Under the pieces are notes generated by a model, which saw only the letters and a list, made by a program, of their open reading frames with translations, ran no database searches and was not told the DNA's origin. Below are positions 1 through 63,129 of a stretch of 64,000 nt of DNA, piece after piece. Numbering within the stretch: position 1 is the first letter of the stretch; each line of letters starts with the position of its first letter. Both the position numbers and the translations under genes were made by a program. Origin of the DNA: Janibacter sp. HTCC2649 (GTDB lineage Bacteria; Actinomycetota; Actinomycetes; Actinomycetales; Dermatophilaceae); the NCBI RefSeq assembly GCF_000152705.1, contig NZ_CH672413.1, positions 1,649,978 through 1,713,977 of the forward strand, in the 5' to 3' direction.

Positions 1-979
1 AGTCGAGGTCCTCGAAGGACACGATCTCGGCCTTGATGAAGCCGCGCTGGAAGTCGGTGTGGATGACGCCGGCAGCCTGGGGTGCGGTCCAGCCCTGACC
101 GATGGTCCACGCCCGCGACTCCTTGGGCCCGGCCGTGAGGTAGGTCTGCAGCCCGAGAGTGTGGAAACCCACGCGTGCCAGCTGGTTGAGCCCGGACTCG
201 GTCGCGCCAAATCCCTCGAGCATCTCCTGGGCGTCCTCGGCGGACATGTCCATGAGGTCCATCTCGAGCTTGGCGTTGAGGAAGACCGCGTCGGCCGGCG
301 CAACCAGGGCGCGCAGGCGATCGTGCAGGTCGGTGTCGGAGAGCTGGTCCTCGTCGAGGTTGAACACGTAGATGAACGGCTTGGTCGTCATCAGTCCCAG
401 CCCGCGCGCTTCGGCGAGGTCGACGCCCGCAGCCGCTCCAGCGGCATACAGAGTCTTGCCCTCCTCGAGCACCTTCTGGGCGGCGAGCGCGTTCTCGTGG
501 AGCGGCTTGGACTCCTTCTTGATCCGCGACTCCTTCTCGAGGCGCACGACGGCCTTCTCGAGGGTCTGGAGGTCGGCGAGGATCAGCTCGGTGTGGATCG
601 TCTCGATGTCGGACTCGGGCGAGACCTTGCCGTCGACGTGGACGACGTCTCCGTCCTCGAACGCTCGCACGACCTGGCAGATCGCGTCGGCCTCGCGGAT
701 GTTGGCGAGGAACTTGTTGCCCAGGCCCTCACCCTCCGAGGCGCCGCGGACGATGCCGGCGATGTCGACGAACGAGACCACGGCCGGCAGGATCTTCTCG
801 GATCCGTGGATCTCGGCGAGTCGAGCCAGCCGCTCGTCCGGCAGTGGGACGACGCCCACGTTGGGCTCGATCGTGGCGAACGGGTAGTTCGCAGCGAGGA
901 CGTTGTTCTTGGTCAGGGCGTTGAACATCGTTGACTTACCGACGTTGGGGAGCCCGACAATTCCGATGGTGAGTGCCAC
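1..979 (-). CDS. ychF: YchF/EngD redox-regulated ATPase (3' end outside window)
   Basis: This is the N-terminal ~326 residues of YchF, an Obg-family P-loop NTPase that prefers ATP and binds ribosomes and nucleic acid. The start is GTG at 979, giving [17 protein letters not shown] with the Walker A motif at residues ~8-16. The G3-like [17 protein letters not shown] follows at ~67, then a coiled-coil arm, and NLDE stands where the G4 motif lies. The visible end ([13 protein letters not shown]) belongs to the C-terminal TGS domain, so only about 35 residues are missing past position 1. GTG start is chosen because the conserved family N-terminus begins there. Confidence 0.95.
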
Positions 980-991
980 GGGGACAGAAGT

Positions 992-1216
992 CTACTGGCG
1001 TGTGGCGCGTGACTTTGCCACTCGCCGGCCCACCCACCACACGATGGCGGCGATCGCGACGCCGACCACGACGAACAGGGCATAGATCCCGGCGGCCTGA
1101 CCATCGCCCTTCGTCAGGGCATAGACGAGCGCGGCGAGACTGACGACGATCCAGACGAGCAGCGCCGCACCCAACAACATCGCGGCGAGGACGCCGAGGA
1201 CCTTGGTGAACGTCAC
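992..1216 (-). CDS. small two-helix membrane protein
   Basis: A 74-residue protein that I do not recognise as a named family. It has two hydrophobic segments (about residues 8-34 and 43-62) separated by a short polar turn (TKGDGQ) and a basic C-terminus (RRVAKSRATRQ), which suggests a hairpin in the cytoplasmic membrane with the tail inside. Its ATG overlaps the stop of the upstream Nudix gene in an ATGA arrangement (1213-1216), so the two are probably translationally coupled. Function unknown. Confidence 0.7.
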   Translation of the reverse strand: MTFTKVLGVLAAMLLGAALLVWIVVSLAALVYALTKGDGQAAGIYALFVVVGVAIAAIVWWVGRRVAKSRATRQ

Positions 1217-1746
1217 GCCATGGTCCCGGGGACTTCACTGTTCTCGAAATACATCGTGTATGCCGTGTGCTCGCCTTCCAGGAGCTGCTCCACCATCCGT
1301 GCGGTGTAGGGAGCGACGTGCTCACCGAGTTCGGCGGGCGCCACCCAGTGGACGGCCTTGATCTCGCGCGGGAGCAGGGTGAGGTCGTCGGTGAACGAGC
1401 GCGGGACGACCCCGAGGTCGTAGAGGAAGAGCACCGCGTCGTCCCACCCGCGCCACGGGGGCAGCCAGTTGACGGCGAGGAGTCGCTCGATGCCGAGGGA
1501 GACGCCGAGCTCCTCAGTGATCTCACGCACGACGCACGCGGCCGGCGACTCCTTGGGGTCCACGACCCCGCCGGGCAGGTCCCACTCGGACTTGTAGGTC
1601 AGCTGGCAGAGGAGGATCTCGCCGTCCTCGTTGCGCACCAGCCCCTGGGCGATGTTGCGTTTGCGGGGCAGCTTGGCGTTGAGGATGTGGATGAACGAGC
1701 GTCGGCCGGCCTCACTCGAGGTGTCGGGTCGCCCGCTGTCAGCCAT
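1213..1746 (-). CDS. Nudix hydrolase
   Basis: A 177-residue Nudix-fold pyrophosphohydrolase. The Nudix box (G-x5-E-x7-REUxEExGU) is intact: GGVVDPKES followed by REITEELGV at residues ~59-83, supplying the metal-binding glutamates. Members hydrolyse nucleoside diphosphates linked to another moiety; the substrate cannot be read from sequence. The N-terminal ~30 residues are basic (KLPRKRN). It lies head to head with the DUF389 gene and is followed by a coupled small membrane protein. Confidence 0.85.
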   Translation of the reverse strand: MADSGRPDTSSEAGRRSFIHILNAKLPRKRNIAQGLVRNEDGEILLCQLTYKSEWDLPGGVVDPKESPAACVVREITEELGVSLGIERLLAVNWLPPWRGWDDAVLFLYDLGVVPRSFTDDLTLLPREIKAVHWVAPAELGEHVAPYTARMVEQLLEGEHTAYTMYFENSEVPGTMA

Positions 1747-1811
1747 GGTCCGAGGCTAACCTGCGTGGCGGCGGACCAGACCAGGTGACCACGCGGCATA
1801 CGCTGCACGTC

Positions 1812-2779: not shown

Positions 2780-3982
2780 ATGAACCCGTGGATCGCGTTG
2801 GTGGGCGGCATCGTCATCGGTGCGCTCACGGCATACCTGTTCTTCAAGCAGGCGTATGCCGTGCGCGCAGCCTCCGTGGCGACCGAACGGGACCTGTTGC
2901 GCGAGCGAGTCGTCGACCTCGAGGCCTCGCTGGCCGAGGATCTCGAGACGGCCTCACTGCTCGCGCCGCTGCGTGACGCCTTGGGGCGCGTCGAGCGGCA
3001 GGTGGGCGTGCTCGAGCGCGACCGGGTCGAGCAGTTCGGCGCCATCCGGGCCGTCATGGGCCGCGTCGAGTCCGAGGCACAGCACCTGGGGAAGCAGACA
3101 CAGTCCCTCGCGGGTTCGCTGCGGTCCTCGTCGGTGCGCGGGTCCTGGGGCGAGGTGCAGTTGCGCCGCGTCCTCGAGGCCTCGGGCATGTTGGCGCGCT
3201 GCGACTTCGAGGAGCAGGTGCGAGCGCGAAGCCGTCACGACCGCGAGGTGCGGCCCGACGTGGTCGTGCGCCTGCCCGGCGATCGTTCGCTGGTCATCGA
3301 CGCGAAGGCACCGATGGCGGCTTTCCTCGACGCCCAGACCGAGGACCTGCCCGAGGACGAGCGGTCCGAGCTGCTCCGCGACCACGCGAGGGCGCTGCGA
3401 CAGCACGTCCACGCACTTGCGGCCAAGGACTACTGGTCGGCGTTCGACACCACTCCCGAGATGGTCGTCTGCTTTGTCCCGAGCGACGCCATGCTCGGTG
3501 CTGCCCTGGCCGCGGATCCGGGACTGCACGAGCGGGCGATGGCCTCACGCGTCGTCCTCGTCGGCCCCGGCACCCTGCTCGCACTGCTGCGCACGGTGGC
3601 GTTCGGGTGGCAGCAGGACTCGCTCTCGTCGAGTGCGCGTGAGCTCTTGGCACTGGGTCAGGAGCTCTATCGCCGACTCGCCACTCTCGGCACGCACACG
3701 GCCAAGATGGGGCGGTCGCTGCACGCGACGGTGGAGAGCTACAACCAGTTCGTCGGCGCCCTCGAGTCACGTGTCTTCGTCACGGCGCGACGGATGCAGG
3801 AGCTCGACGTGGTCACCGACGAGCTGCCGCAGCTCGAGCCGCTCCAGACCGGCCCACGGGTCCTCACGGCGATCGAACTGTTGGAGGCCGTGGGTGCCGA
3901 CCACGAGCGCCCAGACCTCCTGCTCGACCTTCCCGATGTCCCCCGCGCCACCGACTCCGAACGGGAGCGCCCGACCGGCTGA
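2780..3982 (+). CDS. rmuC: DNA recombination protein RmuC
   Basis: A ~400-residue RmuC protein. These limit inversions and recombination at short repeats and have a PD-(D/E)XK-like nuclease core. An N-terminal membrane anchor (ALVGGIVIGALTAYLFF) precedes a coiled coil (residues ~35-110) and the core with VRGSWGEVQLRRVLE, RPDVVVRLP and LVIDAKAP, the putative active-site strand. The start could be ATG 2780 or the in-frame GTG 2771; neither has a strong ribosome site. A small hairpin (GGTGCC-GACT-GGCACC, 2755-2770) lies immediately before the start. The stop is 13 bp from the convergent M23 gene. Confidence 0.88.
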   Translation: MNPWIALVGGIVIGALTAYLFFKQAYAVRAASVATERDLLRERVVDLEASLAEDLETASLLAPLRDALGRVERQVGVLERDRVEQFGAIRAVMGRVESEAQHLGKQTQSLAGSLRSSSVRGSWGEVQLRRVLEASGMLARCDFEEQVRARSRHDREVRPDVVVRLPGDRSLVIDAKAPMAAFLDAQTEDLPEDERSELLRDHARALRQHVHALAAKDYWSAFDTTPEMVVCFVPSDAMLGAALAADPGLHERAMASRVVLVGPGTLLALLRTVAFGWQQDSLSSSARELLALGQELYRRLATLGTHTAKMGRSLHATVESYNQFVGALESRVFVTARRMQELDVVTDELPQLEPLQTGPRVLTAIELLEAVGADHERPDLLLDLPDVPRATDSERERPTG

Positions 3983-3995: not shown

Positions 3996-4661
3996 TCAGG
4001 CGGTGACGATCTCGCCCTCGCCGGGAACCCACATGCGACCGTCGGGCGCGCGAAAAGTCACCGGCACACCTTTGGCGTCGATCCCACCGATCGAGTCACT
4101 GACCTGGACATGCACGTGGGGTTCGGTGCTGTTGCCCGAGTTGCCGCACTCCCCCACCTGCTGCCCGACTTCCACCATGTCCCCGACGCGCACCGCCGCT
4201 GACCCCTGTTTGAGGTGGGCGAGCAGCACGAACGGCCCCGACGGCGCGATCGCGATGGCGACATGGTTCCCGGCCAGGCCGAGGGTCCCGAGCCGCGCAC
4301 GAGATGCCTGTCCCAGCGCATAGGCCATCAGTCGCAGCGGGGACCGGCGTGCCTCGTGGTCGGGTTCGGCGTCATGGACCGCGACGACCTCGCCTGCCAT
4401 CGGTGCGAGCACTGGCTGCCCGAACCCGACGAAGACCTCGGGCGCCTCGAGGCCGAACCACGTGCGCCGGGTCTGCGGGGCGGAGCGGCCTCGTCCGACA
4501 CTTCCCGCCTCGACCGCGACGAAGTCGATGGCGTGGGACACCCCGAACGCCTCGGTGCCGTGGCTGGGCACGCGCCGGGCAGGTGAGTTCTCCACTCGCC
4601 ACGTGCCCGTGAACGGGAAGGCGAGGGCGATCGGCTCCGGTGAGCTCACGGCATACTCCAC
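3996..4661 (-). CDS. M23-family peptidoglycan endopeptidase-like protein
   Basis: A ~221-residue protein with an M23/LytM (lysostaphin-like) fold. The zinc ligands can be recognised as His and Asp in SHAIDF (spacing two, shorter than the usual HxxxD) and the HVH pair in EPHVHVQV near the C-terminus. QPVLAPMAGEVVAV and GNHVAIAI are typical M23 strands. There is no clear signal peptide with the GTG start at 4661, which sits 13 bp after the ispH stop, so export is uncertain. Same orientation as ispH and probably co-transcribed. Confidence 0.75.
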   Translation of the reverse strand: MEYAVSSPEPIALAFPFTGTWRVENSPARRVPSHGTEAFGVSHAIDFVAVEAGSVGRGRSAPQTRRTWFGLEAPEVFVGFGQPVLAPMAGEVVAVHDAEPDHEARRSPLRLMAYALGQASRARLGTLGLAGNHVAIAIAPSGPFVLLAHLKQGSAAVRVGDMVEVGQQVGECGNSGNSTEPHVHVQVSDSIGGIDAKGVPVTFRAPDGRMWVPGEGEIVTA

Positions 4662-5747: not shown

Positions 5748-5784
5748 CGGCGTATGCCGTGAGCTCGGCTCACGGCATACGCCG
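5748..5784 (-). terminator. hairpin terminator built from two GTATGCCGTG motifs
   Basis: A perfect 17-bp stem with a three-base loop (TCG) lies downstream of the doxX stop and before the ispH start, both on the minus strand. Each arm contains one copy of the recurring ACGGCATAC word (at 5752-5758 and 5774-5780). There is no T-tract, which is common for GC-rich actinobacterial terminators. Confidence 0.65.
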
Positions 5785-6975: not shown

Positions 6976-8220
6976 GTGACCAGCCCCGACGCGCGCCCAG
7001 CTCTCCCCGAGCGGGCCGGCGACACCACCGCCGAGCAGCCGTGGCCGGTCCGCCTGCTCTCGATGAAGATCGCGGAGTACGTCGACAAGATGTCGACGCT
7101 GTGGGTCGAGGGCCAGGTCGTCCAGCTGAACCGTCGACCCGGCGCCCGGACGGCTTATCTGACCCTGCGCGACCCGGACGTCGACATGTCCCTGTCCGTC
7201 GCCATCCAGGTCAACGCGCTCGACGCCATGGGCACTCCGTTGACGGAGGGGTCTCGCGTCGTCGTTCAGGCCAAGCCGACGTTCTGGACCCAGCGGGGCA
7301 GCCTCATGCTCGACGGACGGCAGATCCGCCCGGTCGGCGTCGGCGAGCTTCTGGCCCGGATCGAGTACCTCAAGCGCAACCTCGCCAGCGAAGGTCTCTT
7401 TGACGCTGATCGCAAGCGCCCCCTACCCTTCCTCCCCCGTCGCATCGGACTCATCTGTGGCCGGGCCAGCGCTGCCGAGAAGGACGTGGTCGAGAACTCC
7501 CGGCGTAGGTGGCCGACGGCGCAGTTCGAGATCCGCCAGGTTGCCGTGCAGGGAGCCAACGCCGTCACGGAGGTGACGGCGGCACTCAGTGAGTTGGACG
7601 GCATACCCGATGTCGATGTCATCGTCATTGCTCGCGGTGGCGGCAACGTGGAGGACCTGTTGCCGTTCAGCAACGAGGCGCTGATCCGCGCCGTGGCGGC
7701 TGCGCGCACCCCCGTCGTCAGCGCCATCGGCCACGACGTCGACTCGCCCTTGCTCGACCTCGTGGCGGACCACCGCGCCTCGACGCCGACCGACGCGGCC
7801 AAGGCGATCGTCCCCGACGCCGACCGCGAGCACCAGGTCATCGAGGCTGCGCGTACGCGGGGTCGTCGCGCTCTCGAGGGACGGTTGCACCACGAGCGGC
7901 GGCGCCTCGTCGAGCTGAGGTCACGCCCCGTGCTGGCTGACCCCGCAGCGTTCGTTCGCGTGCAGCGCGAGGTCGTTCTGGCACTGCGAGCGCGGGCCAG
8001 GCACCGCACCCAGGCCCAGCTGCACCGCCACCAGGACGGCGTAGCGCACCTGCGCGCCCAGGTGCGCACGCTGTCGCCGCAGTCAACGCTCGACCGGGGC
8101 TATGCGATCGTGCAGCGGGTGGACGGGGCGATCGTCCACGACCCTGACGAGTTGGCCATCAAGGAGCTGCTCCACGTGACCGTGGCTCGCGGGGACTTCG
8201 GTGTCCGCACCGAGGGTTAG
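6976..8220 (+). CDS. xseA: exodeoxyribonuclease VII large subunit
   Basis: A 414-residue XseA, the catalytic subunit of the bidirectional single-strand exonuclease VII. The N-terminal OB-fold covers residues ~25-125 (TLWVEGQVVQL, TAYLTLRD). The central nuclease part has LPRRIGLICGRASAAEKDV, VIVIARGGGNVEDLLPF, SAIGHDVDSPLLD and ASTPTDAAK. The C-terminal region is a long Arg-rich helical arm ending in LDRGYAIV. The start is GTG 6976; a TACAGT box ends six bases before it, so the message may be leaderless. Contains a rare ATA isoleucine codon at 7603, created by a GGCATAC motif. Confidence 0.95.
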   Translation: MTSPDARPALPERAGDTTAEQPWPVRLLSMKIAEYVDKMSTLWVEGQVVQLNRRPGARTAYLTLRDPDVDMSLSVAIQVNALDAMGTPLTEGSRVVVQAKPTFWTQRGSLMLDGRQIRPVGVGELLARIEYLKRNLASEGLFDADRKRPLPFLPRRIGLICGRASAAEKDVVENSRRRWPTAQFEIRQVAVQGANAVTEVTAALSELDGIPDVDVIVIARGGGNVEDLLPFSNEALIRAVAAARTPVVSAIGHDVDSPLLDLVADHRASTPTDAAKAIVPDADREHQVIEAARTRGRRALEGRLHHERRRLVELRSRPVLADPAAFVRVQREVVLALRARARHRTQAQLHRHQDGVAHLRAQVRTLSPQSTLDRGYAIVQRVDGAIVHDPDELAIKELLHVTVARGDFGVRTEG

Positions 8221-10325: not shown

Positions 10326-11261
10326 ATGGCCACCAACCAGAGCACCACGCAGCAGGTCCTCGTCGTCGGCGAGACGCTCGTCGACATCGTGCACACCCCC
10401 GACGGCGCGGTCACCGAGCACGTCGGGGGCTCCCCCGCCAACGTCGCCATGGGCATCGCACGCCTCGGCCACGACACCGTCCTCGCGACCACCCTCGGCG
10501 ACGACGACCACGGCACCCGGTGCCACGAGCAGATCACCTCGCACGGCGTCGCCATCGAGAACCTCGACACGGGCAGCCACCCCACTTCGACGGCCATCGC
10601 CACGATCGATGACTCCGGTGCGGCTGAGTACGTCTTCGACCTCCATTGGGACCTGCGCCCCGTCGCGGACCTCAACACGTTCGGCCACGTCCACACCGGC
10701 TCCATCGCGGCAACCCTCACGCCCGGCGCCACCGTCGTCACCCAGACCCTGGCCGACGCCCGCGAGCACGCCACGATCTCGTACGACCCCAACGTCCGCC
10801 CCTCGATCATGGGCGACGTCGATGAGACCCGCGCTCGTGTCGAAGAGCTCATCGCCCTGAGCGACGTCGTCAAGGCCAGCGAGGACGACATCGAATGGCT
10901 GTATGCCGGTGAGTCACTTCCCGATGTCATGGCCGCCTGGGGGCGGCTGGGACCGGGACTTGTCGTCATCACCAGAGGTGGCGACGGAGTCACCTACCGC
11001 GCGACCGCGACGGGCGAGATCGCCGAGGCCCCCGCCCGTGTCGACGAGGTGGCCGACACCGTCGGCGCCGGCGACTCGTTCATGGCCGGCCTAATCTCGG
11101 GGCTGCTCGACGCCCGCCTGCTCGGCGACACCGACGCCCGACAGCGGCTCAGCACCGCGACCATCGAAGCGGTCGCCGGCTCGGTCAGCCGGGCGATGGC
11201 CACCAGCGCGATCACTGTCGGCCACGCCGGCGCCTACGCACCAACGCGAGAGGAAATCTGA
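10326..11261 (+). CDS. PfkB-family sugar kinase (probable fructokinase)
   Basis: A 311-residue ribokinase/PfkB-family kinase. The N-terminal signature [15 protein letters not shown] at residues ~38-52 and the C-terminal [13 protein letters not shown] with the catalytic Asp at ~250 are intact. [11 protein letters not shown] is typical of fructokinases and 2-dehydro-3-deoxygluconokinases, so a ketose or keto-sugar substrate is likely but not proven. Start ATG 10326 directly follows glpX; the fumarase gene starts 5 bp after its stop. A TAT codon (normally TAC here) at 10902 is part of a GTATGCC motif. Confidence 0.85.
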
Positions 11262-11266: not shown

Positions 11267-12978
<1,712 letters not shown>

Positions 12979-13514: not shown

Positions 13515-14354
13515 GTGAAAGTCGTTGCGCTCAACATTCACCCGCTCAAGAGCGGGGCCATCAGACCGGTCGACACGGCAACCGTGGAACGCGCGGGCCT
13601 CGCCGGTGATCGCCGCTGGATGGTGGTCGACGGCGACGGCAAGCTCGTCTCGGCCCGCGAGGAGCACCGCCTGTTCGCCATCACTCCAGACGTCGCCGAG
13701 ACGGATTCTGCTGTGGGACAGGGACTTCGGCTCCGCGCAGACGGATTTCCCGACCTCCATCTCGCCCGGGACACTGAGCGCGAGATCCCGGTGCGGCTGC
13801 ATCGGCACGACCTCACCGGCACACTCGTCTCCCCGGAGGCCGACGACTGGATCAGCGCCGTGGTCGGACGACCTGGCCTGCAGCTCGTCCGGTGCCCCGA
13901 CCCCACCCGCCGATCCCTCAACCCGGACTTCAGTCGCGAAGGCGACCACACGGCATACGCCGATGGTTATCCGGTGACACTCGCGAGCCTGCGCTCCCTC
14001 GCCCAGCTCAACGACTGGATCGCTGACGGCGCCGTCGAGCGCGGCGAGGAGCTTCCCGAGCCCCTGCCGATCGCACGCTTCCGACCCAACCTCGTCATCG
14101 ACGGCGACCTCGAGGCCTTCGTCGAGGACTCCTGGACGACCGTGCGCATCGGCGACGTGCCGTTCCGCGTCGCGAAGCCCGTGGACCGATGCGTCATGAC
14201 GACGATCGACCTCGACGCCCTCACGACGGGCAAGGAGCCGATTCGCACCCTGGCCCGCCATCGACGGTGGGACGGCGCCACCTGGTTCGCGATACAACTC
14301 ATCCCCGACGACACCGGCATGGTGCGCATCGGGGATGAGGTCGTGCCCGGCTGA
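13515..14354 (+). CDS. MOSC-domain protein with N-terminal beta-barrel
   Basis: A 279-residue protein with the MOSC N-terminal beta-barrel (residues ~1-115; LNIHPLKSGAIRPV, GDRRWMVVD) and a C-terminal MOSC domain (RFRPNLVIDG, PVDRCVMTTID with the conserved cysteine). The architecture matches YcbX and mARC, molybdenum-cofactor enzymes that reduce N-hydroxylated compounds. GTG at 13515 gives the family N-terminus. It follows the carbonic anhydrase by 20 bp and ends 3 bp from the convergent NAD(P)-binding gene. Confidence 0.85.
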   Translation: MKVVALNIHPLKSGAIRPVDTATVERAGLAGDRRWMVVDGDGKLVSAREEHRLFAITPDVAETDSAVGQGLRLRADGFPDLHLARDTEREIPVRLHRHDLTGTLVSPEADDWISAVVGRPGLQLVRCPDPTRRSLNPDFSREGDHTAYADGYPVTLASLRSLAQLNDWIADGAVERGEELPEPLPIARFRPNLVIDGDLEAFVEDSWTTVRIGDVPFRVAKPVDRCVMTTIDLDALTTGKEPIRTLARHRRWDGATWFAIQLIPDDTGMVRIGDEVVPG

Positions 14355-15488: not shown

Positions 15489-16856
15489 ATGACGTTCGAG
15501 ACGACCTTCCCCGACGGCTTCCTGTGGGGCGCAGCAACCGCGAGCTATCAGATCGAGGGTGCGGTGGCCGAGGACGGCCGCTCGCCATCCATCTGGGACA
15601 CCTATTGCGCCGAGCCCGGCAAGGTCCTCGGAGGCGAGTCGGGTGAGGTGGCGTGCGACCACTATCACCGCGTTCCCGAAGACGTCGCGCTCATGAAGGA
15701 GCTCGGCCTCGAGGCCTACCGCTTCTCCGTCGCCTGGCCCCGCGTCATCCCCACCGGCACGGGTGCGATCAACCAGGCCGGCATCGACTTCTACTCACGA
15801 CTCGTGGACACGCTGCTGGACAACGGAATTCGGCCCTTCGTGACGCTCTACCACTGGGACCTTCCGCAGGTGCTCGGCGACAAGGGCGGCTGGCTCAACC
15901 GCGACATCAAGGACTGGTTCGCCGAATACACCGGCGCAGTGGTCGGCGCCCTCGGCGACCGGGTCAAGAACTGGACGACCCTCAATGAGCCGTGGTGCTC
16001 GTCGCTGCTCAGCTACTCACTCGGTCACCACGCCCCCGGTCACACCGACCCGGTCGAGGGACTCGTGTCCGCCCACCACCTCATGCTGGCTCACGGGACC
16101 GCCGTGCCGGTCATCCGCGAGAACTGCGCGGACGCGGAGGTGTCGATCACCCTCAACCCCACCCAGGTCTACGGCCCCGACAACCCCACCGATGCCGACC
16201 TCGATGCCGTGCGCCGGGCAGACAACGTCCTCAACGGCATCTTCTTCGGCCCCCTGTTCCACGGCGCCTACCCACAAAGCCTCCTCGACGACACCGCGCA
16301 CCTCACCGACCACGCATACATCCAGGACGGGGACCTCGCGGTCATCAACGCGCCCCTGGACAACCTCGGGGTCAACAACTACTTCCCCACCCGGGTCCGC
16401 CACTCCGAAGGTGCGGTCCATCCGCTCCCCGGCGGCGACAACGTCGAGGAGACCGAGCCCCACCCGCCGCTCACCGACATGGGCTGGGAGATCTCGCCGC
16501 AGGGCCACCACGACATCCTCGTGCGCTCGTCGCAGGAGTCCGGGCTGCCGATCTACATCACCGAGAACGGCTCGGCCTGGCCGGACGTCATCGAGACCGG
16601 CCCCAAAGGTGAGGCGGTGCACGATCCGGACAGGACGGCATACCTGCATGGTCACCTCGACGCTGCGAAGCAAGCGATCGATGACGGCGCCGACATCCGC
16701 GGCTACTTCGCGTGGTCCCTGATGGACAACTTCGAGTGGGCCTTCGGCTACAGCAAGCGGTTCGGCATCATCCACGTCGACTACGACACGCAGAAGCGCA
16801 CCATCAAGGACTCCGGCCGCGAATATGCCCGGATCATCGCTGCGCACCAAGCGTGA
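15489..16856 (+). CDS. GH1 beta-glucosidase
   Basis: A 455-residue glycoside hydrolase family 1 enzyme hydrolysing beta-glucosides such as cellobiose. FPDGFLWGAATASYQIEGA is the family N-terminus. The acid/base Glu is in TLNEPWC (~170) and the nucleophile in IYITENGSAWPD (~359). YFAWSLMDNFEWAFGYSKRFG is the conserved C-terminal aglycone region. No signal peptide, so it is cytoplasmic and would act on imported disaccharides. ATG 15489 is chosen from the family N-terminus. Confidence 0.94.
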   Translation: MTFETTFPDGFLWGAATASYQIEGAVAEDGRSPSIWDTYCAEPGKVLGGESGEVACDHYHRVPEDVALMKELGLEAYRFSVAWPRVIPTGTGAINQAGIDFYSRLVDTLLDNGIRPFVTLYHWDLPQVLGDKGGWLNRDIKDWFAEYTGAVVGALGDRVKNWTTLNEPWCSSLLSYSLGHHAPGHTDPVEGLVSAHHLMLAHGTAVPVIRENCADAEVSITLNPTQVYGPDNPTDADLDAVRRADNVLNGIFFGPLFHGAYPQSLLDDTAHLTDHAYIQDGDLAVINAPLDNLGVNNYFPTRVRHSEGAVHPLPGGDNVEETEPHPPLTDMGWEISPQGHHDILVRSSQESGLPIYITENGSAWPDVIETGPKGEAVHDPDRTAYLHGHLDAAKQAIDDGADIRGYFAWSLMDNFEWAFGYSKRFGIIHVDYDTQKRTIKDSGREYARIIAAHQA

Positions 16857-17923: not shown

Positions 17924-18748
17924 ATGAGCACCACCACCACTGAAGCACCTCCGAAGAAGAAGCTGTCCCCACGCAAACGCGCCCAACGGATCCGATGGGT
18001 GCAGTACGCACTCCTCATCGCCGTGGCGCTCGTGCTCGTGTTCGCCGCCAACTGGACCCAGATCCAGCAGGTCTTCTTCCGCTCCGACATGGTCAAGGCG
18101 ACCTTCACCGAGGGCCTTCCCAACGCCTTCAAGAACACGCTCGTCTACACCGCCGGCGCCTTCATCATCGGGCTGCTCCTCGGCACGGTGCTCGCCCTGA
18201 TGAGGCTGTCGTCGGTGGGCCCCTACCGCTGGCTCGCGACGGTCTGGATCGAGTTCTTCCGCGGGCTGCCGGCGATCGTCGTCTTCATCGCCTTCGGCCT
18301 GCTGCCACTCGCCTTCTCCGGGCTGGTCATCCCCTTCGACCCCTACGGCACCGTGTGGATCGCCCTGGGCCTCGTCGCCTCGGCCTACATGGCCGAGACG
18401 ATCCGAGCCGGCATCCAGGCCGTCCCTCCGGGACAGATCGAGGCAGCTCGTTCCCTGGGTATGCCGGCCGGCGTCGCCACGCGCAAAATCGTCCTTCCGC
18501 AGGCCTTCCGGGTCATCACGCCCCCACTGACCAACGAGATCATCCTGCTCGTCAAGGACTCGTCCCTCGTCTACGTGCTGGGGCTGTCGACCACGGGCTA
18601 CGAGTTGACGAAGTACGGCCGTGACCTCGCCAACACCAACGCCAACCTCACGCCACTCGTGGTGGCCGGGTTCTGCTACTTGGTCATCACCCTCCCGCTC
18701 TCCATCCTCGTGCGCCGCATGGAAGCCCGACAGAAGAAGGAGCGCTGA
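17924..18748 (+). CDS. amino acid ABC transporter permease
   Basis: A 274-residue HisM/GlnP-type permease. It has a basic cytoplasmic N-terminus ([16 protein letters not shown]), a first TM helix at ~27-42, a periplasmic loop, then the five-helix core typical of the family. The EAA coupling motif [23 protein letters not shown] contacts the ATPase. [15 protein letters not shown] is the usual third-helix segment. The ATPase starts 5 bp after its stop. Confidence 0.93.
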
Positions 18749-18753: not shown

Positions 18754-19626
18754 ATGAGTGCAGCCACCACTTCCACCCCCGTCGTGCAGGTCACCGACCT
18801 GCACAAGTCCTTTGGTGAGAACCACGTCCTCCGGGGCCTCAGCGCGACGATCGGCCAGGGCGAAGTCGTCTGTGTCATCGGGCCCTCGGGTTCGGGCAAG
18901 TCGACCTTCCTGCGCTGCATCAACCTGCTCGAGCAGCCCACCAGCGGCTCGATCCTGGTGGGGGGCGACGAGGTCAACGACCCCGACTGCGACATCGACG
19001 CCATCCGCCGCAACATGGGCATGGTCTTCCAGCAGTTCAACCTCTTCCCGCACCTGTCGGTGCTCGACAACTGCACCATCGCGCAGACCACCGTCCTCAA
19101 GCGGGGCAAGGAGGAGGCGCAGGCCAAGGCCCGCGAGAACCTCGAGAAGGTCGGTCTCTCCGAGAAGGAGGACGCCTTCCCGGCGCAGCTCTCCGGTGGA
19201 CAGCAGCAGCGCGTGGCCATCGCCCGCGCTCTGTCCATGGACCCCAAGCTGATGCTCTTCGACGAGCCGACCTCTGCCCTCGACCCCGAGCTCGTCGGTG
19301 ACGTGCTGTCTGTCATGCGCCGTCTCGCCAGTGAGGGCATGACGATGTTCGTCGTCACCCACGAGATGGCCTTTGCTCGCGACGTGGCCGACCGGGTGAT
19401 CTTCATGGACGGTGGCTACATCGTCGAGGAGGGCTCCCCCGAGCAGGTCATCGGTTCACCGAAGGAGGAGCGGACCAAGGTCTTCCTGCAACGGGTGCTC
19501 GACCCGACGCACGTCGACCCGGGAGCCGAGGACGCGGCATACAACAAACGCCACATCGCCGACGCGACAGCCGACGGCCTCGAGGAACGCCAGCCGGGCA
19601 CCCACGGCCGCTACGGCCTCGGCTGA
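18754..19626 (+). CDS. amino acid ABC transporter ATP-binding protein
   Basis: A 290-residue GlnQ/HisP-type ATPase energising the preceding permease. Walker [10 protein letters not shown] is at ~45, the Q-loop in [12 protein letters not shown], the signature [15 protein letters not shown], Walker [15 protein letters not shown], and the switch His in [13 protein letters not shown]. The C-terminus runs ~45 residues beyond the usual family length, with a Gly/Arg-rich tail. Last gene of the operon, followed by a very long hairpin. Confidence 0.94.
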
Positions 19627-22266: not shown

Positions 22267-22421
22267 GGTGTTACCTAACGTGTGGATGGAACGGGGAGCC
22301 TGTGATTGCGTCCGAAGACCAACCTCAGGGGTATGCCGTGTGCTCCCGCCAGGACTCCGCCTGAATGTTGGAGTCACCTCTCGGGCCACCCTGGGAAGGG
22401 CGCACGGCACAACAGTCCTCA

Positions 22422-22450: not shown

Positions 22451-22523
22451 ATCGACCCCAACTCACCCCAAAAGGGCACCTGACCTGCACAAACAGCGGC
22501 GAGAACACGGCATACACAAAGGT

Positions 22524-34561: not shown

Positions 34562-34606
34562 GGGTATGCCGTGTGCTCCCGGAAGGCGGGCGCACACGGC
34601 ATACCC
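34562..34606 (-). terminator. hairpin between rpsD and rpoA built from GTATGCCGTG motifs
   Basis: Perfect 15-bp stem: GGGTATGCCGTGTGC (34562-34576) with its complement at 34592-34606. Both arms contain ACGGCATAC. It lies in the 171-bp gap between rpsD and rpoA, so it may terminate or attenuate rpoA-rplQ expression. Confidence 0.65.
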
Positions 34607-38596: not shown

Positions 38597-39561
38597 TCAG
38601 TGCCCGAACGCGTCGAGGATCTGCGCGGCCGCGTCGACGGCGCTGAGTTCGCCGGAGCGCACCGCTGACTCGATCTGCGCCCGCTGCTCCTTGACCCGGG
38701 GCGCGACCCGAACGGCGTCGGTGAGGTGCGCGTCGACGAGGGCCCACATCCAGTCCTGCTGCTGCTGGGCCCGCCGCGCCTCGAGCGAACCCTCCGACTC
38801 CAGGTGGGCGCGGTGCTCGAGCACGGCCTCCCACACCTCGTCGAGGCCGGCACCGGTCATGGCCGAGCAGGTCAACACGGCCGGTCGGCGCACCTCGGCC
38901 CCGGGAAGCATGAGCCGCATCGCGGCCGTGAGGTCCTTGGCCGCACCCTTGGCCGGCAACTCGCCATCGCCATCGGCCTTGTTCACCGCAATGACGTCGG
39001 CGAGCTCGAGGATGCCGCGCTTGATGCCCTGCAGCTGGTCGCCGGCCCGCGCGAGCGTCAGCAGGAGGAAGGTGTCGACCATCTCGGAGACCGCGATCTC
39101 GTTCTGCCCGACACCAACCGTCTCGACGATGACGACGTCGAAACCCGCCGCCTCGAGGACGAGCATCGACTCGCGAGTCGCACGCGCCACTCCCCCGAGG
39201 TGCCTTCCGCTGGGACTCGGCCGGACGAACGCGTGGTCACTCGCGCTGAGCTCGCCCATCCGCGTGCGGTCTCCGAGGATCGAACCGCCCGTGCGACGCG
39301 AGCTCGGGTCGACGGCAACGACTGCGACGCGGTGACCGGCCTCGATGAGCCGGACGCCCATCGCGTTGACGAAGGTCGACTTGCCTGCCCCCGGAACGCC
39401 CGAGATCCCCACTCGCACAGCAGAACCCGTGTATGCCGTGAGCTCGGTGAGCAGGGCACGTGCCCTTTCGCGGTGGTCGGGTCGGGTCGACTCGACCAGC
39501 GTGATCGCACGGGCGATGTGGGTCCGCGAACCAGCGCGGACCCCGTCGAACAGCTCGTCGG

Positions 39562-43605: not shown

Positions 43606-44109
43606 TCAGCCGTGTCGGCCCTCGGAAACCACGGCCTCGTATGCCGCCTGAAGGCGTTCGCTGGCCCGCGGACCCTTGCTCGGTGGAAGTGGCACACCCA
43701 GGTGGTGGGCGCGCAGCTCGTCCATGAGCTCGGCGACCATCGACGGTCCCCCTTCCTCCATGAGCTGCTGGCGGATGGTCAGCTCCGGGGTGGTCGCCCG
43801 GTGTGCCCGACCCCAGGTCCCGAGGGCAACCAGCACCGGAAGGGTCTGGATGCCCGCCTCGGTGAGGCTGTAGCGAGCACGCTGACCCCGGACCGCGTCG
43901 TCACGGGTGAGGATTCCGCCGGCGACCAGGGCTTTGAGCCGCGACGACAGGACATTGCTGGCGATGCCCTCGTCGGACCCGTTGAGGAGTTCACGGAAGT
44001 AGCGACGGTCGCCGAACATCATGTCGCGCAGGACGATGACGCTCCAGGGATCACCGAGCGCCTCGACGCCGGCGTTGATCGCGCAACCCGACCGTGGCTC
44101 GCCGCGCAT
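43606..44109 (-). CDS. HxlR-family transcriptional regulator
   Basis: A 167-residue winged-helix regulator. The HxlR signature with a redox-type Cys appears as SGCAINAGVEALGDPWSVIVLRDMMFGDRRYFRELLNG (residues ~7-44); SNVLSSRLKALVAGGILTR is the recognition part. The tail after ~115 is longer than in typical HxlR proteins. It is divergent from the reductase operon, with inverted and direct repeats between them, so it probably regulates that operon and itself. Confidence 0.88.
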   Translation of the reverse strand: MRGEPRSGCAINAGVEALGDPWSVIVLRDMMFGDRRYFRELLNGSDEGIASNVLSSRLKALVAGGILTRDDAVRGQRARYSLTEAGIQTLPVLVALGTWGRAHRATTPELTIRQQLMEEGGPSMVAELMDELRAHHLGVPLPPSKGPRASERLQAAYEAVVSEGRHG

Positions 44110-45477: not shown

Positions 45478-46165
45478 TCATCGTGACCGGACATCTCGTC
45501 GTGGATGCCGCAGACCGTGACCGCGCGGTCGAGTTGTCACGCGAGGCCGTCATCGCTGCGCGGGCAACCCCGGGGTGCATCGACTTCGCCGTGAGTGCCG
45601 ATGCGGTCGAGCCCGACCGCGTCAACATCAGCGAGAGATGGACCGACCGCGCGGCCCTCGACCGTTTTCGCGGCAGTGGCCCAGAGGGCGAGGTCGGCAC
45701 TCTCATCCGCGACTTCGCGGTGGCAGAGCATGAGGTGACGTCGAAGGATTCGGCGGCGGACGGCATACGCGCGGTCCTCGACGCACGCGTCGCGGCCGTC
45801 AGGGCCAAGGACCTCGACGCACTCGATCCCTGCTGGCCGACGACCTGGAGTCCTTCAATGTCCTGCCGCCGCACCGCGCCGAAGGTCGCGAGCCCACACT
45901 CGAGGCAGCGCGCGGCTGGTTCGACGGCTATGCGTCAGACATCGGGTACGACGTTCACGACCTCAACGTCACCGCCTCCGGTGACGTCGGTTTCGCGTCG
46001 TTCCTCTATCGCGTCACCGGCACCCTCACCGGCGGCACCGAGGTCGACATGTGGGTGCGCGCCACCTTGGGTTTCGAGCGCCTGGACGGCCGCTGGATCG
46101 TCACGCACGACCACGAGTCCGTGCCCTGGGATCCCGAGACGGGGCAGGGCGTGCTGACCCTGTGA
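45474..46165 (+). pseudogene. ABM monooxygenase-SnoaL fusion with a -1 frameshift
   Basis: The first ~100 residues are an antibiotic biosynthesis monooxygenase (ABM) fold (MIIVTGHLVVDAADRDRAVELSRE; ATPGCIDFAVSADAVEPDRV). A SnoaL-like domain begins in the same frame (AVLDARVAAVRAKDLDALDP), but near 45828 the frame breaks. The continuation LLADDLESFNVLPPHR...TGQGVLTL lies in the -1 frame and ends at 46165. The break is in CCC where CCCC would restore the frame: a one-base deletion or a sequencing error. Read straight on, the frame gives low-complexity Ser/Pro/Arg sequence. Confidence 0.8.
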
Positions 46166-46172: not shown

Positions 46173-47195
46173 TCAGTCGCGCCAGCCCAACGCTGGGGCC
46201 ACGTGGGTGAGGATGCTCTCGAGGAGGTGGGCGTTGTAGTCCACACCGAGAGTGTTGGGGATCGTCAGGAGCAGGGTGTCGGCCGCCGCAACGGCCTCGT
46301 CCTGCGCGAGCTGGCGCACCAGCTCGTCCGGCTCAGCGGCATACGACTTGCCGAAGCGAGCGAGCCCACCGTCGATCATCCCGACCTGGTCGGTGCTGCG
46401 CCGGTCCGCCCCGAAGTAGGCGTGGTCCTGCGCCGTCACGAGGGGGAAGATGCTCCGACTCACCGACGTCCGCGGCGTTCGCTCGTGACCGGCCTCGCGC
46501 CACGCGTCGTGGAACATCTGGATCTGCTCGGCCTGCAGCTGGTGGAAGGGGACACCCGTGTCCTCGGTGAGCAGCGTCGAGCTCATGAGGTTCATCCCCT
46601 GCTGCGCAGTCCAGACGGCGGTCGCCCGGGTTCCGGCCCCCCACCAGATGCGGTCGCGCAGACCCTCGGAGTGCGGTTCGACGCGCAGCAGACCGGGCGG
46701 GTTGGGGAACATCGGGCGTGGGTTGGGCTCGGCGAATCCCTCACCGTCCAACACCGTGAGGAACTCGGCCGTATGCCGTCGCGCCATGTCGGCGTCCGAC
46801 TCACCTTCGCGCGGGTGATGGTCGAAATGCCGGTAACCCTCGATGACCTGCTCGGGCGATCCCCGGCTGATGCCGAGCTGGAGGCGCCCCTCCGCGATGA
46901 GATCGGCCGCTCCGGCCGTCTCGGCCATGTAGAGGGGGTTCTCGTAGCGCATGTCGATGACGCCCGTGCCCAGCTCGATCCGGCTCGTCTTCGCCCCCGC
47001 GGCGGCGAGCAGGGGAAAGGGTGACGCGAGCTGCTGGGCAAAGTGGTGCACCCGGTAGTACGCCCCGTCCGCACCCAGCTCCTCGGCCGCGACCGCCAGC
47101 TCGATCGACTGCAGCAACACGTCGGAGGCCGTGCGGACCGCCGACTGCGGGTGGGGGTTCCAGTGGCCGAACGACAGGAAACCGATGCGCTTCAT
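46173..47195 (-). CDS. LLM-class flavin-dependent oxidoreductase
   Basis: A 340-residue luciferase-like F420- or FMN-dependent oxidoreductase. MKRIGFLSFGHW, GAYYRVHHFAQQLASPFPLLAAAGAKTSRIELGTGVIDMRYENPLYMAETAGAADLIAEGRLQLGISRGSPE matches the MsnO8-like/LLM group barrel. Substrate unknown. ATG 47195 is chosen from the family N-terminus; GTG-type extension upstream is possible. Confidence 0.88.
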   Translation of the reverse strand: MKRIGFLSFGHWNPHPQSAVRTASDVLLQSIELAVAAEELGADGAYYRVHHFAQQLASPFPLLAAAGAKTSRIELGTGVIDMRYENPLYMAETAGAADLIAEGRLQLGISRGSPEQVIEGYRHFDHHPREGESDADMARRHTAEFLTVLDGEGFAEPNPRPMFPNPPGLLRVEPHSEGLRDRIWWGAGTRATAVWTAQQGMNLMSSTLLTEDTGVPFHQLQAEQIQMFHDAWREAGHERTPRTSVSRSIFPLVTAQDHAYFGADRRSTDQVGMIDGGLARFGKSYAAEPDELVRQLAQDEAVAAADTLLLTIPNTLGVDYNAHLLESILTHVAPALGWRD

Positions 47196-49350: not shown

Positions 49351-49394
49351 AAGGCGGGGCATGCCGGGACTCACGTCCCGGCATACCCCGCCTT
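49351..49394. terminator. bidirectional terminator between DinB gene and adk
   Basis: Arms 49351-49370 and 49375-49394 pair over 20 bp with one C-A mismatch and a TCAC loop. The right arm holds GGCATACCCC; the left carries its near-complement with GCATGCC, so the motif pair is nearly kept. AAGG...CCTT ends give short T runs. Confidence 0.75.
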
Positions 49395-51394: not shown

Positions 51395-51452
51395 CGTATG
51401 CCGCAAGGCGAGTTCCCGGATTGCCTCCGGGAACCGCGCCCTGCGGCATACG
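51395..51452 (-). terminator. large hairpin between rplO and secY with GTATGCC pair
   Basis: Outer arms CGTATGCCGCA (51395-51405) / TGCGGCATACG (51442-51452), then GGCG/CGCC, then an inner TTCCCGGA (51413-51420) / TCCGGGAA (51426-51433). The outer arms each contain GGCATAC. It follows rplO and probably ends the spc transcript before secY. Confidence 0.65.
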
Positions 51453-54174: not shown

Positions 54175-54316
54175 TGGGCTTCTCCGCCCTCTCTCACCGT
54201 GGTTTCATCCGGGGCTGCTGCTCCGGCTGACCTTCGATGTAGATGGTTTTGGGGTATGCCGCGGGTGCGGCGTGATTTCGGCTGTGCCGAGACCGGGATG
54301 GCTGAGTCAGCCGTGG

Positions 54317-55804: not shown

Positions 55805-55886
55805 TTATCTGTCTCCTATACGTCGTGCTGGTTCTCTGTTTGCCTCGGACGAACCGACGGGCGTCAGAGCCTGGCCGAACTTGGGC

Positions 55887-57671: not shown

Positions 57672-57673
57672 GT

Positions 57674-58356: not shown

Positions 58357-58373
58357 GTGTCAATGGCTCCTTG

Positions 58374-59210
58374 TCAGCGCTTCTTGCCAGTGCGGCGTCG
58401 GCGGACGATCATCTTGTCGCTCGGTTTGCCCGGGCGACGGGTGCGGCCTTCGGCCTTGCCCCAAGGGGAGACCGGGTGACGACCACCGGAGGTGCGGCCT
58501 TCGCCACCACCGTGCGGGTGGTCGACCGGGTTCATGACGACACCACGGACGGTCGGGCGCTTGCCCTTCCAGCGCATGCGGCCGGCCTTGCCCCAGTTGA
58601 TGTTGGACTGCTCGGCGTTGCCGACCTCACCGATCGTCGCGCGGCAGCGCGCGTCGACGTTGCGGATCTCGCCGGACGGCATACGCAGCTGGGCGTAGGG
58701 GCCGTCCTTGGCAACGAGCTGGACGCGGACGCCGGCCGAACGCGCGATCTTCGCGCCGCCACCGGGGCGGAGCTCGACAGCGTGAATGACCGTACCGGTC
58801 GGGATGTTGCGCAGCGGGAGGCTGTTGCCGGGCTTGATGTCGGCGCCAGGACCGTTCTCGATGTTGGCGCCCTGCTCCAGACCCTTGGGGGCCAGGATGT
58901 AGCGCTTCTCACCATCTGCGAAGTGCAGGAGAGCGATGCGGGCGGTGCGGTTGGGGTCGTACTCGATGTGAGCGACCTTGGCCGGGATGCCGTCCTTGTC
59001 GTGGCGACGGAAGTCGATGAGTCGGTAGGCGCGCTTGTGGCCACCACCGATGTGACGCGTCGTGATGCGACCGTTGTTGTTACGGCCACCGCTCTTGGTG
59101 AGCGGTCGCACGAGCGACTTCTCAGGCGTGGTGCGCGTGACCTCGACGAAGTCGGCGACGCTAGAGCCGCGACGGCCAGGCGTCGTCGGCTTGTACTTGC
59201 GGATACCCAT
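58374..59210 (-). CDS. rplB: 50S ribosomal protein L2
   Basis: A 278-residue L2. [15 protein letters not shown] start, the OB and SH3-like domains, and the [27 protein letters not shown] loop with the conserved His near the peptidyl-transferase centre are intact. Contains an in-frame GTATGCC motif at 58684-58678. Confidence 0.97.
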
Positions 59211-59241
59211 GTCGTGTTTCCTTAAGTTCCTCAGTCGTCTC

Positions 59242-60530: not shown

Positions 60531-60535
60531 GATGG

Positions 60536-61192: not shown

Positions 61193-61202
61193 CTGTCAAC
61201 CC

Positions 61203-61511: not shown

Positions 61512-61882
61512 CTTGGCTTCCGTCTCTCTCTCGCCGTCTTCTTACTTCTGTCTTTGGTCGATCCTCAGGTCCGACCCCCGAGGTCGGGCGTGTCGCGCCC
61601 GCTCCGCGGCCCGACGGCATACGCATTCCTGCGTCAATCCGTCGGATGAATCGGAACTCCGTTGAATCGGAGCCGCTTTGCCTGCCGTGTGTCGCCCCGG
61701 CTTGACCGGTTCGAGTTGTTCTCACGTACAGGGGTGGTCCGAACCCGACGAGTGGTCGAGCGGATGCGTTCCACACCAAGCAACTGGACAATAGTGCCAG
61801 AGGCGGGGGCGACCTACCAAATCGAGTCAGGGGCGCACGGCATCCTCGTGCTCGTGGCGCGTCGTTCCCCGCGCCGGCGGAA
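61512..61882 (-). promoter_or_regulatory. S10 operon promoter and leader region, no gene
   Basis: No coding sequence supported in this ~370-bp stretch. A minus-strand TTGGTA (61822-61817) followed by CACTAT 18 bp later is a weak promoter candidate, which would give a leader of about 280 nt before rpsJ. One GGCATAC motif at 61616-61622. No clear riboswitch-like fold can be called by eye. Confidence 0.35.
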
Positions 61883-61926
61883 CGCCGAAGCCCTCGCGGA
61901 ACGCATCCCGCGAGGGCTTCGGCGTG
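61883..61926 (-). terminator. strong hairpin terminator after the secreted helical protein
   Basis: An 18-bp perfect stem (61883-61900 / 61909-61926; core CGCCGAAGCCCTCGCGG) with an 8-base loop, 34 bp past the stop at 61960. It insulates the S10 promoter from read-through. Confidence 0.8.
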
Positions 61927-61959
61927 GGCACCGCGTGCGGCGCCCCGGTGTGGTTGTGG

Positions 61960-62544
61960 TCAGCGCGGTCCCCCGCCGAGCACTCCCGCGTCCAGTGCCT
62001 TGAGAACGGACGCCTTGTCGGCTGCGGTGAGCTTCCCAGCCTTCACTGCGGCGTCGAGCCTGGCGCTCAGCTCCGTCTTGTGCTCGGCATCGTGGGCGGC
62101 GCGGACCTTGTCGAGGGCCGCGGCCACCTTGTCGGCGCTCACTCCGAGTTCCTTGGCGAGAGCTGCAACGTATGCCGTCTCCCTGGCCTGGCGCTCGGCG
62201 TCCGTCGGCTTCGTACCCTCAGCGGGCTTCTCCGTCGGCTTGTTGGCCTCGCGCACCTTCTCGATGGCGGCCTGGACCTTGGCCTCGTCGAGACCGAGGG
62301 CCGAGGCAAGGGCCTTGGCATCGGCGCCCCTGGGGCCACCCTTGCCATGTCCGGGACCGCCTGGCACACCGCCACGCTCCCCCGGGACGGTGGCCGACGG
62401 CGCCTCGCCGCTCTGGGTGGATGACGACGCACCCGGGGTCGGGGTGGTGTCGGCGAGGGCCTGGCTCGCGCCGAGACCGATCGTGGCGATCGCGGCTGCT
62501 CCGGCCACACCGGCGAGGGCGGCCGTCTTGGTGATCCTGGGCAT
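61960..62544 (-). CDS. secreted helical-repeat protein, unknown
   Basis: A 194-residue protein with a signal peptide (PRITKTAALAGVAGAAAIATIGLGASQALA, cut near ~32), a Thr/Pro/Ser linker with GGVPGGPGHGKGGPRG, and two similar helical units: ALASALGLDEAKVQAAIEKV (~93-112) and ALAKELGVSADKVAAALDKV (~146-165). These units occur in exported proteins of actinobacteria and clostridia; role not known. It ends in a Lys/Ala-rich helix. ATG 62544 is chosen for the signal peptide. Confidence 0.75.
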   Translation of the reverse strand: MPRITKTAALAGVAGAAAIATIGLGASQALADTTPTPGASSSTQSGEAPSATVPGERGGVPGGPGHGKGGPRGADAKALASALGLDEAKVQAAIEKVREANKPTEKPAEGTKPTDAERQARETAYVAALAKELGVSADKVAAALDKVRAAHDAEHKTELSARLDAAVKAGKLTAADKASVLKALDAGVLGGGPR

Positions 62545-62683
62545 GGAGTGTTCCTCTCGTTGCGGTCGACCCGAGGTGGCCGACCGTCGTCCCACCACCG
62601 TGACCTCCCGAACTGAACCTGTCGTATGCCGGACCTGTCACGAACCTGTCAACCATCCGGGCTCGGGCTGCTGGTCGGCGTGG

Positions 62684-63129
62684 TCACCCAACGCGTTCGG
62701 CCCACGGCGAGAGCGCCAGGTCGGGCGTGACGACAGCCGCTCCGGGCACAGCAGACAGGACCCGCTCCACGAGGTCCACCGAGCCGGCGACGAACGTCGC
62801 TGCGATGTCGGTGTCACCGCCGACGAGCCAGGAGTGGGAGCACGGCCAGAACAGGCTCGGCGACCGGCTCCCCAGAGCGCCGCGACGCAGCCGCCGGGGT
62901 CCTTGCCGATGCATCCCCGAAGGGGTGCCGCCAGGTCCGCGTTGAGGACCTCGCCCGGGTTGCTCGTCGGATCGTCGGCGCGGTGCGGGATCACGGCATA
63001 CGCCGCGAACGCCGTCGTCACGAGACCCCCTACGGTCCCGAAGGGACCCAGTTCGGGCGACAACCACTCCCCTGCCGACGGCGGAACAGTGAGGAGATCG
63101 GACCAGGTGCGTGACGGCATACGCATCAT
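62684..63129 (-). pseudogene. hypothetical gene split by a one-base frameshift
   Basis: A protein-like N-terminus (MMRMPSRTWSDLLTVPPSA, then FGTVGGLVTTAFAAYAVIPHRADD...GKDPGGCVAALWG) runs to about 62875, after which that frame turns to low-complexity Arg/Ser. The protein-like continuation FWPCSHSWLVGGDTDIAATFVAGSVDLVERVL...AERVG lies in another frame ending at 62684. Adding one G to the GGGG at the junction rejoins them into ~149 residues. No family recognised; a deletion or sequencing error. Confidence 0.55.

Follow-up and report, generated by a model that had tools for sequence, protein, structure and literature searches.

A conserved, highly abundant octamer in Knoellia and its family as a possible DNA uptake sequence

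In the available parts of PMC1939737 and PMC2734928, uptake sequences are named from two Gram-negative families, that of Neisseria and the Pasteurellaceae. The DNA uptake sequences (DUS) of the Neisseriaceae form dialects, and their receptor is the minor pilin ComP (PMC3630211, in part). The uptake signal sequences (USS) of the Pasteurellaceae have an exact core with diverged forms among species, according to excerpts of PMC1939737 and PMC12616744. Here, we analyze CGGCATAC, an 8-mer dispersed through a 64,000-nt stretch of Janibacter sp. HTCC2649 (the window; G+C content, 67.3%) and through the rest of this 4.24-Mb genome; we treat the host as a Knoellia, its closest named SecY match being that of Knoellia sinensis (89%), and the other Knoellia genomes as congeners. 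The exact sequence of the word, its presence on both strands, its location mostly in genes with a higher density between them, its site conservation, and its dialects are together the signature of DUS and USS, to which the inverted orientation of close pairs may belong.

As far as the excerpted accounts of DUS go, these likewise are very abundant exact words whose dialects follow the family tree around a shared core, and some family members have no obvious word. The present case differs in its actinobacterial, high-G+C host, its 8-bp core, and the failure to find PilM in any of 25 family genomes tested, and its receptor and its role in uptake are putative. Like USS, it combines an exact core with diverged forms among species; the word itself differs, and its one-mismatch forms are hardly enriched, unlike those of Haemophilus influenzae and Neisseria gonorrhoeae (PMC1939737, in the part available). 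The highly iterated palindromes (HIPs) of cyanobacteria, HIP1 and its alternates, are also superabundant exact 8-mers, low or substituted in some lineages. However, these are palindromic and have cognate methyltransferases, whereas CGGCATAC is not palindromic (PMC4390886, for the sections available). Among actinobacteria, transformation of Micrococcus luteus needs two tad clusters (PMC4322843, in part), and our host likewise has several tad regions together with comEA and comEC; that paper never uses the term “uptake sequence” in its text. In the open-licence literature, preprints excluded, none of the papers listed by our searches (15 of 39 in one of them) described an actinobacterial uptake sequence, or the word itself as one, in its title or abstract. 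The same letters form a Ralstonia tandem-repeat unit in PMC7723262, abundant octamers are surveyed without the word “uptake” in PMC2843746, and PMC10860758 is unrelated to an actinobacterial uptake sequence.

Abundance and conservation of the word

A sequence-only reading of the window had counted about 50 copies of GGCATAC (29 and 21 by orientation) and about 30 of a 9-mer, assuming a G+C content of about 70%. That assumption was too high, and the counts were right: the window holds exactly 29 forward and 21 reverse copies of GGCATAC and 18 plus 12 of the 9-mer ACGGCATAC. Since C precedes 48 of the 50 heptamers, the 8-mer CGGCATAC is the better unit and was adopted here, with ACGGCATAC counted alongside and the reversed word as a control. 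Across the whole host genome, CGGCATAC occurs 1496 + 1486 times, or about 3,000 copies, against 24 + 35 for the reversed word; the corresponding counts are 635 + 586 for ACGGCATAC and 5 + 6 for its control. In a 464-kb sample of the host genome (5.8 kb of it N, with 5773 N bases within host C1:1140001-1160000), an order-2 Markov model predicts 7.9 copies of CGGCATAC and 1.45 of ACGGCATAC. We observed 289, a 37-fold excess, and 122, respectively.

The same reading had named codon shuffling as a test that could refute it. We permuted synonymous codons within 832 genes called by a simple in-house gene caller, and 100 shuffles yielded a mean of 39.9 copies (standard deviation, 5.9; maximum, 51), while the genes carry 467. 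These 467 copies fill 45% of the 1030 coding places where synonymous choice permits the word (211/584 in one orientation and 256/446 in the other), compared with 10/574 for the reversed word; within genes, the split is 211 sense to 256 antisense (p 0.04). Shuffling, the Markov model, and the occupancy control thus all miss by more than tenfold, in agreement with the earlier argument against a codon-level cause. Together, they confirm the claimed over-representation as a genome-wide excess and rule out codon usage, mutational artefact, and chance.

The unusual codons that the word had been said to force were largely found. TAT is used at 10902 and 4655 and ATA at 7603 and 30354, while a further ATA proposed at 45765 lies outside any called gene. 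The word had also been described as scarce where codon bias is strictest, and its density is indeed 0.24 sites/kb in the most biased class of genes versus about 0.7 in the middle classes. Within positions 49970-61511, a presumed ribosomal-protein region inferred from gene sizes and order without a profile search, one site lies in a gene (58677) and three lie between genes.

We aligned the window to five congeners at 84-87% identity; these share history, so the comparisons are not independent. The word was intact in 148 of 183 site-by-congener comparisons, as opposed to 9073 of 22044 for control 8-mers of the same letters. By congener, 36/43, 27/33, 26/35, 31/38, and 28/34 sites were intact, compared with 39-45% of the same-letter 8-mers (per-congener Fisher tests, p = 4e-5 to 1e-7), and the flanks of the sites were conserved no better than the average of the alignment. 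In the same five nonindependent congeners, TAT was kept in 31/33 cases inside sites versus 71/185 outside, and GCA in 50/56 versus 168/804. The word is therefore maintained site by site, even where rare codons result. The 48 sites of the window, 32 of them within called genes, are as follows. In-gene status is that of the in-house caller (gene 29791-30642 was absent from the first gene call), and fractions give intact copies among aligned congeners.

442..449, forward strand: core site CGGCATAC, in called gene; intact 4/4
1258..1265, reverse: core site, A at -1, in called gene; intact 5/5
1794..1801, forward: core site, between called genes; intact 1/1
2829..2836, forward: core site, A at -1, in gene, inverted pair with 2854; intact 5/5
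2854..2861, reverse: core site, A at -1, in gene, inverted pair with 2829; intact 5/5
4649..4656, forward: core site, A at -1, in gene, TAT codon; intact 3/3
5752..5759, reverse: core site, A at -1, between genes, inverted pair with 5773; intact 2/2
5773..5780, forward: core site, A at -1, between genes, inverted pair with 5752; intact 1/1
7599..7606, forward: core site, A at -1, exonuclease VII large subunit gene, ATA codon; intact 4/5
10901..10908, reverse: core site, in gene, TAT codon; intact 4/5
11316..11323, forward: core site, A at -1, fumarase gene; intact 4/5
12609..12616, reverse: core site, A at -1, fumarase gene; intact 3/4
13951..13958, forward: core site, A at -1, in gene; intact 5/5
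16636..16643, forward: core site, A at -1, glycosyl hydrolase family 1 gene; intact 5/5
18459..18466, reverse: core site, in gene; intact 1/5
19535..19542, forward: core site, in gene; intact 4/5
22331..22338, reverse: core site, A at -1, between genes; intact 5/5
22508..22515, forward: core site, A at -1, between genes; intact 5/5
25014..25021, forward: core site, in gene 24494-25867; 0 of 0 aligned
25215..25222, reverse: core site, A at -1, in gene 24494-25867; 0 of 0 aligned
25746..25753, forward: core site, A at -1, in gene 24494-25867; 0 of 0 aligned
26598..26605, forward: core site, gene with pullulanase X25 and alpha-amylase domains; intact 5/5
28737..28744, reverse: core site, A at -1, alpha-amylase-type gene, as site 26598; intact 5/5
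28916..28923, forward: core site, A at -1, alpha-amylase-type gene, as site 26598; intact 4/5
30351..30358, reverse: core site, called gene 29791-30642, ATA codon; intact 2/5
30414..30421, forward: core site, called gene 29791-30642; intact 2/5
30743..30750, forward: core site, A at -1, in gene; 0 of 0 aligned
32152..32159, reverse: core site, A at -1, in gene; intact 3/3
34564..34571, reverse: core site, A at -1, between genes, inverted pair with 34597; intact 5/5
34597..34604, forward: core site, A at -1, between genes, inverted pair with 34564; intact 2/5
37639..37646, forward: core site, in gene; intact 4/4
39431..39438, reverse: core site, A at -1, in gene; intact 5/5
42000..42007, reverse: core site, in gene; intact 1/5
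42962..42969, forward: core site, A at -1, in gene; intact 5/5
43639..43646, reverse: core site, in gene; intact 3/3
45761..45768, forward: core site, A at -1, between called genes; intact 1/1
46337..46344, forward: core site, in gene; intact 2/3
46771..46778, reverse: core site, A at -1, in gene; intact 3/3
49379..49386, forward: core site, between genes; intact 1/2
51396..51403, reverse: core site, between genes, inverted pair with 51444; intact 4/5
51444..51451, forward: core site, between genes, inverted pair with 51396; intact 4/5
54254..54261, reverse: core site, between called genes; intact 4/5
58677..58684, forward: core site, A at -1, gene 58374-59210; intact 5/5
61615..61622, forward: core site, A at -1, between genes; intact 3/5
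62170..62177, reverse: core site, A at -1, in gene; intact 4/4
62624..62631, reverse: core site, between genes; intact 1/4
62994..63001, forward: core site, A at -1, between called genes; intact 2/3
63115..63122, forward: core site, A at -1, between called genes; intact 2/3

Layout and sequence context of the sites

A layout sample of 858 kb, in 41 stretches across the host chromosome, contains 599 sites, split 302/297 between the strands. Counts per stretch are Poisson-even (dispersion, 0.95), and site density is 1.58/kb between genes versus 0.60/kb within them. The strand of the sites is unrelated to GC skew (rho 0.11, p 0.49, for a weak skew and an unmapped origin), with splits of 127/123 where the skew is positive and 175/174 elsewhere. 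Neighbors less than 60 bp apart are mostly inverted: of 27 such pairs, 25 have opposite and 2 have the same orientation (p = 6e-6). In five of the 25 inverted cases, the pair directly separates two convergent genes and could form a hairpin of the kind suited to a terminator. PMC2734928 cites a study whose title concerns DUS in transcription terminators.

Around the strict 8-mer, sites in Knoellia have a looser, asymmetric context of about 30 bp. A is enriched 2.65-fold at -1, CA stands at -2 in 144/598 sites (33 expected), GAGC stands at -7 in 55/598 (5.0 expected), and the A/T fraction is 0.40 versus 0.32 at +12 to +21. USS have a looser context too, with an A/T-rich stretch downstream of the core. 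The GAGC element is also enriched at unpaired sites within genes (25/459), and it is common to the congeners and to pooled samples of K. koreensis, Terrabacter, and PHYC1 (5/58).

The stretch with the fewest sites, host C1:180001-200000, holds a mobile-looking metal-resistance island that encodes a Mu-type/IS21 transposase, IstB, a P-type ATPase, two cation-efflux genes, and a primase-domain protein. Its 20 kb contain only 3 sites (Poisson P = 5e-4), the lowest count among the 41 stretches and one chosen after the fact; DUS and USS are expected to be scarce in DNA of recent foreign origin.

Distribution and dialects in the family

We counted the pattern CGGCATMC, chosen to include one dialect, in 186 genomes of the family, calling genomes “on” at 350/Mb or more and “off” below 250/Mb. 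The resulting densities are bimodal, with 111 genomes on, 71 off, and 4 between. An on genome is found in 33 of 53 genera, some of which are mixed. All nine Knoellia genomes searched carry the word, with 885-1469 copies of ACGGCATAC. By strand, CGGCATAC occurs 2003/1983 times in K. koreensis, 1234/1251 in K. sinensis, 1096/1135 in Terrabacter, 1275/1267 in Flexivirga, and 1565/1546 in Metallococcus. Three genomes are intermediate, namely, Humibacillus (134/138) and two metagenome-assembled genomes, and counts are low in Janibacter indicus (9/9) and Phycicoccus avicenniae (9/9). In Streptomyces, Microbacterium, and Curtobacterium, the word is near the control level. Elsewhere in the class, none of 241 genomes is on for CGGCATAC, the highest (G255) having about 51/Mb, in a search that did not cover the dialect words. 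Thus, among the genomes sampled, abundance of the word is confined to one family. The named relatives that carry it bear the family names Intrasporangiaceae, Dermacoccaceae, and Ornithinimicrobiaceae, and placement in the sampled family was borne out only for Knoellia and Metallococcus.

A SecY tree of 28 rows requires five changes of the on label, set there at 150/Mb or more. The word was therefore likely lost or gained repeatedly in the family. Samples of 76 kb from G010 and 56 kb from G018, both off, revealed no other word as strongly enriched that might replace it, the top 8-mers standing at about 9-fold. Proteome composition does not differ significantly with word status. [STPA]AY and [STPA]YA number 324/248 in the host, 186/126 in the congeners, 63/44 in CGN-dialect samples, and 68/64 in off samples (host versus off, p = 0.29; host plus congeners versus off, p = 0.19).

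Several relatives use a variant of the word. By unbiased word counts, CGNCATAC is the dialect of Flexivirga, Metallococcus, and genome G011; in Flexivirga, enrichment is 28-fold for CGTCATAC, 25-fold for CGCCATAC, 18-fold for CGGCATAC, and 10-fold for CGACATAC. The dialect of G024 is CGGCATCC, with 114 copies versus 10.6 expected, and in G023, which has 44 core sites, AGCGGCATACG occurs in 34 copies as part of a longer consensus. In this last genome, the consensus spans about 20 bp, GAGC stands one base further out (21/44), and 28/44 sites lie between genes; it may be either an extended dialect or a small element dispersed through the genome.

Uptake and the competing explanations

Since the word matches DUS and USS in its genome signature, we lean toward CGGCATAC being a self-DNA tag for natural transformation. 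In those systems as here, the whole genome holds many more copies of a short exact word than Markov and codon models predict; the copies prefer neither a strand nor a replication direction and lie in genes, yet more densely between them; dialects across the family share a core (CGGCATAC, CGNCATAC, CGGCATCC, and AGCGGCATACG); and the host encodes DNA-uptake machinery. Of the competence genes that the sequence-only reading had proposed to look for, comEA and comEC are present and adjacent (C1:8582 and 9475, within C1:8.6-10.3 kb); Flp/Tad genes occur in four regions, at about 0.15, 1.37, 2.01, and 3.87 Mb. If the word is such a tag, the competence machinery would include a DNA receptor at the cell surface that grips word-bearing DNA, and kin DNA would then be imported and recombined preferentially. 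Recombination with tagged DNA would spread and restore the word at much of the sequence where encoding it is harmless, so that it would come to occupy many encodable places. We infer an uptake receptor as the reader, the transformability of these bacteria, and the identity of the reading protein, perhaps a minor pilin of the Flp/Tad pilus or a ComEA-type protein.

The following observations weigh against an uptake role. Word presence is tracked by neither comEA nor the pilus ATPase TIGR03819 across the 186 family genomes. comEA (TIGR00426) is found in 179 of them, 97 over the curated cut-off, and its misses comprise five on and two off genomes. TIGR03819 is found in 184, 168 of them over the cut-off, and the remaining 18 (read from E-values) comprise 11/111 on and 7/71 off genomes, so some on genomes, such as G012, may lack a TIGR03819-type pilus. 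The one Tad cluster compared, which does not differ cleanly between on and off genomes, is seemingly intact in the off genomes G016 and G017 and rearranged in the on genome G003. No receptor for the word was found, and we know of no uptake experiment in the word-bearing family. Nor is there the graded excess of one-mismatch forms that is usual, if not strictly defining, for DUS and USS: after masking, 306 were observed versus 269 expected, possibly because the occupancy of coding places is so high. On these two points, machinery tracking (not a defining feature) and graded mismatches, the word does not match DUS and USS, and the interpretation of the earlier reading is supported in part. Inverted close pairs that form hairpins at gene ends are common in DUS and USS, though not a strict requirement; here, close pairs are no more numerous than by chance (27 versus 24.6), only their orientation being skewed, and 10 of the 25 inverted pairs touch called genes. 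GAGC at -7 is found at 0/178 sites in Flexivirga/Metallococcus, 0/29 in Arsenicicoccus/G019, and 0/113 in G024, and it is weak in G011. Taken as a class, genes with low codon scores show only a mild depletion of the word, and gene 24494-25867, aligned in none of the five congeners at any of its three sites, carries it all the same. Finally, samples of 40 kb from Leekyejoonella and Ornithinimicrobium held 4 copies each, where about 12 and 10 were expected, despite high whole-genome totals of 1581 and 1021.

Because the machinery genes are equally common in relatives without the word, their presence gives no support to uptake; it permits this reading without favoring it over its rivals. Two candidates were rejected. 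ComEC was found in 25/25 family genomes tested and, showing no association, does not explain the on and off states. A PilM-type type IV pilus was set aside as the reader, PilM being found in 0/25 family genomes and in 6/14 from other families. The Tad cluster compared is interrupted by unrelated genes that, judging from sequence starts only, are transporter-like in G010 (off) and regulator- and small-transporter-like in G003 (on).

The main rival explanation is that the word resembles HIP1 and is created and kept by a system inside the cell, such as an orphan DNA methyltransferase coupled to biased mismatch repair or gene conversion, without any role in uptake. We regard it as unlikely, though it is the strongest of the alternatives. 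The high synonymous occupancy and the weak one-off enrichment fit a conversion-like process, the failure of competence genes to separate on from off genomes suits it equally, and HIP1 is likewise a superabundant exact 8-mer, low or swapped for alternates in some lineages and linked to methyltransferases. Yet HIPs and their extensions are palindromic (PMC4390886, in its available sections, for these and the preceding points on HIP1), and neither the core nor the context of CGGCATAC has this symmetry; the context is asymmetric, and it is the close pairs that are inverted.

Somewhat less probable is a site for a nucleoid, segregation, or regulatory protein that needs about 700 sites per Mb, apart from uptake. 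The even spread and the strong conservation of the word agree with such a site, and the dialects resemble shifts in a protein's specificity. However, most sites lie in genes, on either strand and at a cost in codon choice, and the orientation rule of close pairs is left unexplained; no such DNA-binding factor is known to us with this copy number and strictness. Chi and the FtsK-orienting polar sequences (KOPS) represent a class of recombination or replication-orientation signals that includes short, asymmetric, over-represented words of comparable length. A signal of this kind is improbable here because the strands are symmetric, both genome-wide and locally, with no link to GC skew; moreover, the 37-fold excess and the intergenic surplus are unlike Chi. 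The remaining alternative attributes the pattern to codon bias, to repeats in proteins, to chance, or to a mobile repeat scattered through the genome; for the host genome, we consider it refuted. The G023 consensus could be a short dispersed element in that genome, but in Knoellia only the 8-mer is strict and its sites lie in unrelated genes, and the composition-based controls fail by the margin given above.

If the word is an uptake sequence, it belongs to a new, independently evolved set. With hardly better than even confidence, we propose that uptake sequences thus have a third independent family, which would be the first known from a Gram-positive phylum. Its members would be strict 8-bp self-tags with genus-level dialects acting as mating barriers, would be read by an Flp/Tad pilus or ComEA-type receptor, and would fill nearly half of the synonymous coding places, having been switched on and off several times. 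Sequence-tagged bacterial sex would then have evolved once more on another type of pilus, and its origin and loss could be studied within a single family whose members show on, off, and dialect states. If uptake is not the cause, another strong process must hold a nonpalindromic word in 45% of the synonymous places. Either way, the word is a guide to choosing DNA for attempts at genetic manipulation of these bacteria.

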